Assembly (NCBI GenBank): GCA_025363435.1 | Contig: JANYDY010000102.1 | Coordinates: forward strand, 1-43,487 | Direction: 5' to 3' | Origin: Betaproteobacteria bacterium | GTDB lineage: Bacteria; Pseudomonadota; Gammaproteobacteria; Burkholderiales; SG8-41 | Length of the DNA: 43,487 nucleotides | Shown: positions 987 through 16,434 of the stretch, piece after piece | Numbering within the stretch: the stretch's first letter is position 1 | Layout of the letters: every line of letters starts with the position of its first letter | Made by a program: the position numbers and the translations under genes | Notes under the pieces: generated by a model | Database searches by the model: none | Seen by the model: the letters and a program-made list of their open reading frames with translations, nothing else | Told to the model about the DNA's origin: nothing

Positions 987-1023
987 AAAAACAAAAAACC
1001 CGATCTGCGGGCGCCGATCGGGT
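987..1023 (-). terminator. Intrinsic terminator in the metH leader, abutting the start codon
   Basis: On the minus strand ACCCGATC (1023-1016) pairs perfectly with GATCGGGT (1005-998) around a 10-base loop, followed by TTTTTTGTTTTT reaching the metH ATG at 986. The only gene further upstream on this strand is the VIT gene, more than 600 bases away with a convergent gene between, so the hairpin belongs to the metH leader and is best read as an attenuator. Confidence 0.8.
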
Positions 1024-1026
1024 CAC

Positions 1027-1110
1027 GCCGCTTAGCCGTATTTGTTTTTCACCGGTTTGGTTGTTGCGGAAGTCCCGGCGGCGCTCGCAAGCAATGCAGA
1101 AATCAGCGCT
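1027..1110 (-). promoter_or_regulatory. Candidate SAM-II-type riboswitch aptamer with inserted hairpin, metH leader
   Basis: Read 5' to 3' on the minus strand: P1 strand GCGCT (1109-1105), GATTT (1104-1100), GCTTGCG (1092-1086), P1 partner AGCGC (1085-1081), a 35-40-base insert holding CCGG (1078-1075) and CCGG (1055-1052) that can pair, and then AAATACGGCTAA (1043-1032). These elements, in this order, are the conserved features I recall for the SAM-II pseudoknot (GAUUU, GCUUGC, UAAA, GCUAA), and they match the metX leader in this window. The insert is longer than in the minimal SAM-II core. A competing helix GCGCCGC (1084-1078) with GCGGCGT (1031-1025) would exclude P1. The gene context, methionine synthesis, fits SAM sensing. 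The assignment is from motif memory, not a covariance search. Confidence 0.7.
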
Positions 1111-1118
1111 AAATTAGA

Positions 1119-1147
1119 AGGTTACGCGCAGAACACAGGGTTGTCAA
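1119..1147 (-). promoter_or_regulatory. metH sigma-70 promoter
   Basis: On the minus strand TTGACA (1147-1142), a 17-base spacer and TAACCT (1124-1119) predict a start near 1112, two bases before the aptamer begins. The metX promoter has the same -35, spacer length and almost the same -10. Confidence 0.6.
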
Positions 1148-14713: not shown

Positions 14714-15142
14714 ATGCTGCGCGAGATACTCGCGGTACGTCAGGACAAACCCGGCCTCAGGCGGCGCTGGTTTCAGGATGAATTTTTCGATCTCTACACC
14801 TGGCAAAAACGCGACGGCGCGCTGGTAAATTTTCAGCTTTGCTACGACGTGCGCGGTCGCGAGCGCGCGCTCAGCTGGTCGCACGCGCAAGGTTTCTCGC
14901 ACAACAAAATCGACAGCGGCGACGAATATGCCGGACAGCCAATGACGCCGCTGTTGAAAGGTGACGCCCGCTTCCCGCACCGTTTTGTGCGCACGCGGTT
15001 TATCCGCCACGCCACATCGCTCGATGCGACAACCAGCACTTTTATCCTCGATAAAATGCGCGAGTTCGGCCGTCACTCTGCACGCGGTGAAATCGTGCTG
15101 CCGCGACGCGTGCGAACGCCGGCGCCAGACACCCCTATTTGA
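14714..15142 (+). CDS. Conserved-looking protein of unknown function
   Basis: 142 residues, start seven bases after the ptsI stop, so probably cotranscribed with the PTS genes. I do not recognise a family. It is soluble, with no signal peptide or membrane helix, rich in Arg, His and aromatic residues ([16 protein letters not shown] near residue 21, then [20 protein letters not shown] and [11 protein letters not shown]), and a basic C-terminus. The aromatic and acidic spacing and normal codon use argue for a real gene. Its TGA stop overlaps the -35 box of the metX promoter, so PTS transcripts may read into the metX leader. Confidence 0.65.
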
Positions 15143-15167
15143 CAAGCAAGGCCTGCGCGGGTAACGT
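15139..15167 (+). promoter_or_regulatory. metX sigma-70 promoter
   Basis: TTGACA (15139-15144), 17-base spacer, TAACGT (15162-15167), predicting a start near 15174, a few bases before the aptamer. It closely parallels the metH promoter. Confidence 0.65.
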
Positions 15168-15180
15168 AACCCTCGTTGTT

Positions 15181-15234
15181 GTGCGCCGATTTGATTCAGC
15201 TTGCGGGCGCCTAATAAATCCGGCTAAAGAGAGG
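15181..15234 (+). promoter_or_regulatory. SAM-II-type riboswitch aptamer, metX leader
   Basis: P1 GCGCC (15183-15187) pairs with GGCGC (15206-15210). Between them are GATTT (15188-15192) and GCTTGCG (15199-15205). After P1 come TAATAAAT (15212-15219) and GGCTAAA (15222-15228). AGCT (15198-15201) can pair with GGCT (15222-15225) as a pseudoknot. Element order, spacing and the whole about 50-base size match the compact SAM-II aptamer, known mostly from alphaproteobacterial metA/metX/metC leaders. Here it sits before metX. Not verified by a covariance model. Confidence 0.85.
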
Positions 15235-15249
15235 CGAGGTAAAACTAAG

Positions 15250-15285
15250 CCCGGTTTAGCGCAAGCAAACCGGGTTTTTTTATTT
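15250..15285 (+). terminator. Intrinsic terminator of the metX riboswitch, abutting the start codon
   Basis: CCCGGTTT (15250-15257) pairs perfectly with AAACCGGG (15267-15274). The loop can close further as GC-GCAA-GC, and seven T follow (15275-15281), ending four bases before the metX ATG. TTTAGC at 15255-15260 is complementary to GCTAAA of the aptamer (15223-15228), giving a plausible antiterminator. Confidence 0.87.
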
Positions 15286-16434
15286 ATGGATCACGCAGAA
15301 AACAAACATTCGGTCGGCGCGGTAACCCCGCAGAAAGCGCGCTTCGATGCACCGCTTTCATTAAGCAGCGGCGCAACGCTCGCCGGCTACGAACTCGCCT
15401 ACGAAACCTACGGCACGCTCAATGCGAACCGCTCGAACGCGGTGCTGGTCTGCCACGCGCTGAACGCCTCGCACCATGTCGCCGGTTTTTACGCCAACGA
15501 CCCCGCCAACCTCGGCTGGTGGGACAACATGATCGGTCCGGGAAAACCGCTCGACACCAACCGTTTTTTTGTTATCGGCGTCAACAATCTCGGCGGCTGC
15601 TTCGGCTCGACCGGGCCTTTGTCACCGAACCCGGCGACCGGCAAACCGTGGGGCGCTGATTTTCCGGTGGTCACGGTTGAAGACTGGGTCAACACGCAGG
15701 CCCTGCTCGCCGATCAACTCGGCGTCAAGCGTTTCGCCGCGGTGATGGGCGGCAGCCTCGGCGCGATGCAGGCGATGTCGTGGACCATCCAGTATCCGGA
15801 ACGCGTCGGCCACGCGCTGGTGATCGCCGGGGCGCCCAATCTGTCGGCGCAGAATATCGCCTTCAACGAAGTCGCGCGCCAGGCCATCATCACCGATCCG
15901 GATTTTCACGGCGGCCATTACTACGAGCACAACACGCGGCCGACGCGCGGCCTGCGGGTAGCGCGCATGGTCGGCCACATTACCTATCTGTCGGACGACG
16001 AGATGGCGAACAAGTTCGGGCGGCTGCTCAGGAACGGCAAGCTCAATTATTCCTTCGACGTCGAGTTCGAAATCGAGTCGTACCTGCGCCATCAGGGCAA
16101 CAAGTTTTCCGACTATTTCGACGCCAACACCTATCTGCGCATCACCAAAGTGCTCGATTACTTCGACCCCGCGGCGGCGCACGGCGGCAACCTGAGCCTG
16201 GCGCTGGAGCCGGCGACCGCGGCCTTTCTGGTCGTCTCCTTCACCACCGACTGGCGCTTCTCGCCCGAGCGTTCGCGCGAAATCGTCAAAGCCCTGCTCG
16301 ACAACAGAAGTGCCGTCAGCTACGCCGAAATCGATGCGCCGCACGGCCACGACGCCTTTCTGCTCGACGATGCGCGTTACCACCGTCTCGTCGGCGCTTA
16401 CTTCGAGCGCATCGCGCAGGAGCTCGCGTCATGA
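15286..16434 (+). CDS. metX: Homoserine O-acyltransferase MetX
   Basis: 382 residues from ATG 15286; upstream in-frame sequence is riboswitch and terminator. An alpha/beta-hydrolase enzyme that activates homoserine with acetyl- or succinyl-CoA at the entry of methionine synthesis. Conserved features are [17 protein letters not shown], the nucleophile elbow [14 protein letters not shown] with the catalytic Ser, the Asp in FTTDWRFSP and the His in [11 protein letters not shown]. The acyl donor cannot be decided from these motifs alone; pairing with metW is often seen with the succinyl type. It overlaps metW by four bases. Expression should fall when SAM is abundant, if the leader works as read here. 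Confidence 0.96.

Follow-up and report, generated by a model that had tools for sequence, protein, structure and literature searches.

A SAM-II-type riboswitch candidate with an inserted hairpin precedes metH in a betaproteobacterium

The window, the whole stretch of 43,487 nucleotides analysed here (contig JANYDY010000102.1 of a Betaproteobacteria bacterium), begins within metH, the gene for methionine synthase, whose N-terminal part lies on the minus strand (3-986) and which continues past the window edge. The 328 N-terminal residues matched TIGR02082 (450.7 bits) and NF007024 (515.9 bits), confirming the gene named in the initial annotation. The parts listed there for the leader, TTGACA-17-TAACCT, P1, GAUUU, GCUUGC, an insert, AAAUACGGCUAA and a terminator, were all present on the minus strand between approximately 1147 and 987. 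The -35 hexamer TTGACA (1142-1147) and the -10 hexamer TAACCT (1119-1124), with a spacer of 17 nt, are retained in most relatives from the same genus. TAACCT is a weak -10 element (3/6 matches to the consensus), and a simple promoter scan reported no promoter at the metH leader.

A SAM-II-type aptamer with an inserted hairpin, P3, occupies 1023-1113 (minus strand) and scored 95.4 bits with R1, a covariance model made from seven metH leaders (alignment A1) that include this sequence. P1 is formed by GCGCU (1105-1109) and AGCGC (1081-1085) and encloses the L1 loop with the conserved GAUUU (1100-1104). GCUUGC (1087-1092) is the 5' strand of the P2 pseudoknot and part of the expected SAM pocket. 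The insert (1080-1044) begins directly after P1 and contains P3 (1050-1080); it is followed by AAAUACGGCUAA (1032-1043), which comprises AAAUACG of L3 and GGCUAA, the 3' strand of P2. The intrinsic terminator (997-1024) has arms at 1024-1016 and 1005-997 and a loop, GGCGCCCGCA, at 1015-1006. Its U-rich tract (987-996) adjoins the metH start codon (AUG, 986-984), so a read-through mRNA begins translation directly after the hairpin. No Shine-Dalgarno sequence is visible before metH at 987-1005 of the minus strand.

The same genome carries two sister leaders. One lies in the window, on the plus strand 5' of metX (homoserine O-succinyltransferase, 15286-16434, NF047916), and consists of a promoter-like TTGACA-17-TAACGT (15139-15167), a canonical SAM-II aptamer that lacks P3 (15179-15236) and a terminator adjoining an AUG (15248-15276), the loop of which contains CGCAAGC, the perfect complement of GCUUGCG in the aptamer. 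This aptamer scored 28.3 bits with RF00521 at 15173-15249 (gathering score 36), 31.8 bits with R1 and 53.6 bits with R2, a later covariance model that allows P3. A third SAM-II-type leader, which bears P3, was found with the later model 5' of metZ on another contig (C107, locus L120 1920-2001, minus strand). P3 is thus present on metZ and metH and absent on metX, and each step of the route from homoserine to methionine (MetX, MetZ and MetH) has a leader of this type. The Rfam family RF02424 (Burkholderia sRNA Bp2_287) matched the antisense strand of SAM-II leaders every time, at 15155-15280 (minus strand) in the window and at seven loci elsewhere, and may be a wrong-strand record of a metX SAM-II leader.

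Family models did not recognise the metH leader. Rfam, run over the window with gathering cut-offs and over the metH leader at E ≤ 10, gave no relevant match to that leader: RF00521 (SAM-II, gathering score 36 bits) and RF01826 (SAM-V) had no match to it at E ≤ 10, nor did RF01057 (SAH riboswitch) or RF01726 (SAM-II long loops) match it, the best RF01726 score in the whole genome being 15.7 bits at another site. The initial annotation had proposed the SAM-II and SAM-V searches and had counted an empty result against its own reading. Both were empty, which the insert explains. A sequence profile of 29 canonical SAM-II leaders gave the intact metH leader 6.7 bits; after in silico removal of 34 nt of the insert the same profile aligned over its full length with 19.9 bits (E 3.6e-5), far above everything else in the window except metX. 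Similarly, none of 20 further P3 loci matched RF00521 or RF01726 at E ≤ 1. Judged from its sequence, the metH leader belongs to the SAM-II class as a structural variant that is predicted to bind SAM; it stands apart from RF00521 as built, to which it is not assigned because it falls below the score of that model.

Evidence that P3 is a real helix came from related leaders. In alignment A2, which has 51 rows (50 leaders with the insert and the canonical metX leader of the window), all six outer P3 pairs showed compensatory double changes. These totalled 53 cells, compared to 15.4 ± 3.0 for shuffled alignments (0/500) and 9-21 for slid versions of the pairing, and in a fold-free test of 61 inserts the two ends paired at -9.8 kcal/mol, compared to -5.1 ± 0.3 kcal/mol when ends were swapped among leaders (0/10000), with the qualification that the P3 leaders are related by descent and neither the double changes nor the pairings count as independent events. 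The mean fold z-score of the 61 inserts was -2.4. The stems diverge widely and still pair, as in CGCCGAU/AUCGGCG, GGAGGC/GGCCUCC and GAAAGAAG/CUUUC. In the leaders that were read out, the insert starts directly after P1, folds as a hairpin and stops just 5' of the A-rich AAAU. From P1 to the A-rich section of L3 the insert takes up 17 to 84 nt. P3 differs among leaders in both sequence and length but remains a hairpin, and its loop shows no conservation. In the window, CGCCGG (1080-1075) can pair with CCGGUG (1055-1050), which together with the covariation upholds the CCGG/CCGG fold suggested at the outset. In eight metH leaders of Oxalobacteraceae and Polynucleobacter a second insert was seen within L1, GAUUUGA...GUCAAA, a potential small hairpin.

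The rest of the fold varies less. P1 has 5 bp, and 99.2% of its alignment cells are paired; a single double change was found, in a pair that covaries between U-A and C-G. The covariation to be checked in P1 and the insert was extensive in the insert and slight in P1, which varies too little to yield more. The P2 core is invariant in sequence and so its pairing is not demonstrated by covariation, and the variable part of P2 in P3 leaders gave -1.74 for native and -1.55 for swapped partners (973/10000), which is not significant. Folded as a single sequence, the metH leader was unremarkable (z -1.0). The core itself is kept almost without exception, with GAUUU in 59, UUGC in 60 and GCUAA in 59 of the 60 P3 leaders, and the core nucleotides are the same as those of the canonical SAM-II before metX in the source genome. 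Since P3 covaries strongly across relatives and the core is so widely kept, the structure of the metH leader is not a product of chance. The enlarged SAM-II fold put forward in the initial annotation is supported by the profile match of the insert-less leader, by the recovery of the SAM-II leaders before metX and metZ with models made from metH leaders, and by the covariation of P3.

R1 matched 219 of 399 Burkholderiales genomes (E ≤ 0.01), and at least 44 of the matches listed, in 34 genomes and 10 families, bear P3 (span 70-139 nt, compared to approximately 60 nt for the canonical form). The insert, the unusual part of the leader in the initial annotation, is absent from canonical SAM-II and is not peculiar to metH of the window: the P3 hairpin recurs in many families. 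Nearly all of the 51 aligned leaders (49) precede metH, metX or metZ; the genes downstream are metH in 19 cases (seven of them input to R1), metX in 18, metZ in 12 and a DUF885 gene in two. The two DUF885 leaders, in family f23 (L132 1370-1508 and L133 1345-1445, both minus strand), combine a P3-bearing SAM-II with a terminator; the DUF885 gene is not an obvious methionine gene. Among named species, Noviherbaspirillum autotrophicum, N. humi and Oxalicibacterium faecigallinarum carry the P3 form on metH, as do metagenome-assembled genomes of Polynucleobacter and Herminiimonas; in four Undibacterium species the SAM-II on metH lacks P3. Beyond Burkholderiales, hairpin-bearing forms lie 5' of metN and metZ. 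In other gammaproteobacterial orders, five loci have a SAM-II with a hairpin insert 5' of the gene for an ABC-transporter ATPase, confirmed as MetN at one of them (L241).

Within the family, 72 of 74 genomes yielded a metH, and the same leader layout was found 5' of it in five genomes of the genus and one of another genus. Three further metH leaders of the genus depart from this layout. In one (L013 1362-1456, plus strand), GCCAA replaces the conserved GCUAA, a change expected to touch the SAM pocket; this leader may be decayed or altered in specificity. The other two (L010 and L012) keep the promoter, GATTTCTGCC and the terminator, with unrelated sequence where the aptamer was. Genera g9 and g3 have an SAH riboswitch 5' of metH in place of the SAM-II type (RF01057; six leaders above the gathering score). 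Sister genera therefore place metH under opposite kinds of sensor. An SAH riboswitch for metH of the window was considered and rejected, as it occurs in other genera only.

A terminator with a U-tract follows the aptamer in the metH leader and in most related leaders. The initial annotation saw no clear antiterminator; a candidate exists. UGCGAGCGCC (1080-1089), which joins the end of the P2 strand to the P1 3' strand, is complementary to the terminator loop GGCGCCCGCA at 9 of 10 positions, with one A-C mismatch. With its neighbours this duplex reaches -20.5 kcal/mol, compared to -15.0 kcal/mol for shuffled sequence (p 0.027), -16.8 kcal/mol for the terminator and -8.3 kcal/mol for P1. In the metZ leader of the source genome, AUCAGCUUGCG is complementary to CGCAAGCUGAU, and a stretch of 11 nt in the terminator loop and 3' arm perfectly matches the aptamer strand as its complement. 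Across leaders, complementarity to the L1/P2/P1-3' strand lies in the terminator loop and often extends into the beginning of the 3' arm. For 73 distinct leaders the duplex had -18.5 kcal/mol natively and -15.2 kcal/mol with shuffled terminators, and swapped partners did better in 4 of 5000 trials; the complementarity is significant over the whole set but modest in single leaders, of which only 26% exceed 95% of their shuffles. The complementarity between GCGCCGC (1084-1078) and GCGGCGU (1031-1025), noted initially as a competitor of P1, was also found. The complementarity of terminator loop and aptamer strand supports, without proving, an OFF switch that would act by attenuation.

We therefore read the metH leader as a SAM-II-type OFF riboswitch that would control the gene by transcription attenuation, with a probability of roughly 0.84; the parts, the covariation of P3, the homology to SAM-II and the gene context are observed, and SAM as the ligand, the direction of control, termination, antitermination and the role of P3 are the predicted elements of this reading. 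The RNA made from the promoter (1147-1119) would start at or just 5' of P1. At high SAM, the P1/P2 pseudoknot would bind the ligand through GAUUU, GCUUGC and GGCUAA, and the bound aptamer would retain the strand 1092-1080, allowing the terminator to form and halt transcription just before the metH AUG. At low SAM the strand would be freed, UGCGAGCGCC would pair with GGCGCCCGCA, the terminator would be disfavoured and metH would be transcribed. SAM orders L1 and P2 of SAM-II, and P1 is stable without ligand (PMC10907184). Because the antiterminator strand of metH includes the P1 3' strand and P1 forms without ligand, P1 would need to give way, and this is the weakest point of the model. P3 is a hairpin where L3 begins, beside the base of P1; its probable role is to stack beneath P1 and to stabilise or tune the aptamer from outside the pocket.

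If the switch acted mainly on translation, the hairpin adjoining the AUG or the pseudoknot would block the ribosome, and termination would be secondary. The contact of the U-tract with the metH AUG and the lack of a visible Shine-Dalgarno sequence would suit such a mode, and the Sargasso metX SAM-II is translational (PMC9373788). We nevertheless consider it unlikely, as the terminator and U-tract are of the typical kind here and in most related leaders, the aptamer has no evident ribosome-binding site, and SAM-II of alpha- and beta-Proteobacteria are mostly linked to terminators, for which no mechanism has been established (PMC2258182). Still less likely is a SAM-II fold that has been kept for another ligand, such as SAH, methionine or homocysteine, or whose P3 is bound by a protein. 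Relatives do use SAH riboswitches on metH, and a hairpin that persists while its sequence and length change might serve a protein. The core nucleotides, identical to those of the P3-less SAM-II on metX of the source genome, and the placement of the switch on genes of one pathway argue against a different ligand, and the unconserved P3 loop argues against a binding protein.

Attenuation through a leader peptide, or a simple terminator, with only a chance likeness to SAM-II, is the least probable of these explanations and hardly credible. A 20-codon frame, TTG...GGC TAA, spans the insert of the metH leader, but it has no run of Met or Cys codons, and the covariation of P3 and the conservation of the core speak against chance. 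The leader peptide was rejected on the insert lengths of related metH leaders (37, 39, 38, 40, 40, 28 and 26), which break the frame.

The metH leader and its relatives bear on the class as a whole. SAM-II, though well studied, is far commoner than the Rfam cut-off implies: in 369 gammaproteobacterial genomes (GTDB class), RF00521 exceeded its cut-off in 30 and matched 118 at E ≤ 0.001, while R2, the matches of which outside Burkholderiales were inspected in part, found 180 at E ≤ 0.001. The class is extended to metH and metN, and SAM-II attenuators gain a concrete antiterminator model. Natural pairs in one genome (canonical on metX, P3 on metZ and metH) make it possible to test how ligand switching changes when an H-type pseudoknot contains a hairpin. 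More tentatively, and at slightly less than even odds, the P3-bearing SAM-II might be a distinct, widespread subclass that family models overlook, with a hairpin that tunes SAM affinity or co-transcriptional switching, and SAM-II in its two forms, not an element of another kind, might be the main control of the beta-proteobacterial genes that lead from homoserine to methionine.

SAM-V (RF01826) shares the binding core of SAM-II. The preQ1-II riboswitch is an H-type pseudoknot with a hairpin within the loop that leads into the 3' pseudoknot strand, an architectural parallel only to the P3-bearing SAM-II, as sequence and ligand are unrelated. A description of a hairpin insert in SAM-II was not found in the open papers that were searched, and an earlier description is possible. 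Extended SAM-II forms had been suspected to be on record, and one is: SAM-II long loops (RF01726; Weinberg 2010, PMC2864571) is likewise an acknowledged enlarged form of SAM-II, whose loops are longer, but it comes from Bacteroidetes and marine sequence and has a 60-position model that does not match the metH leader. A further candidate for the same class is the metXZ RNA element, described as new and with an unknown effector, 5' of metXW and metZ in beta-proteobacteria (Leyn 2014, PMC4239095). The available text of that study gives it a pseudoknot, a region 5 that alternatively pairs with regions 1 and 2, and a terminator, and reports SAM_alpha solely in Rhizobiales and Rhodobacterales. The element resembles the P3-bearing and canonical SAM-II leaders in its genes (metXW and metZ), its host bacteria, its pseudoknot and terminator, and pairings that fit the SAM-II layout: P1 corresponds to regions 1 and 4, and AAAUCCGGC can pair with GCCGAUUU as region 5 does with regions 1 and 2. 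It differs in that this text does not recognise it as SAM-II and mentions neither metH nor an extra hairpin. Because the SAM-II leaders fit the published description, the metXZ element of beta-proteobacteria is probably SAM-II, as far as a description in words allows, which would give it a candidate identity. With SAM-II itself (SAM_alpha, RF00521; Corbino 2005, PMC1273637) the metH leader shares P1, GAUUU in L1, the GCUUGC/GGCUAA core, the A-rich L3, a promoter just 5', a terminator 3' and an association with methionine genes, and it differs in the P3 insert between P1 and the A-rich L3. SAM-II is thus a known class, already seen in beta-proteobacteria, and the leaders with the recurrent P3 hairpin form a structural variant of it.
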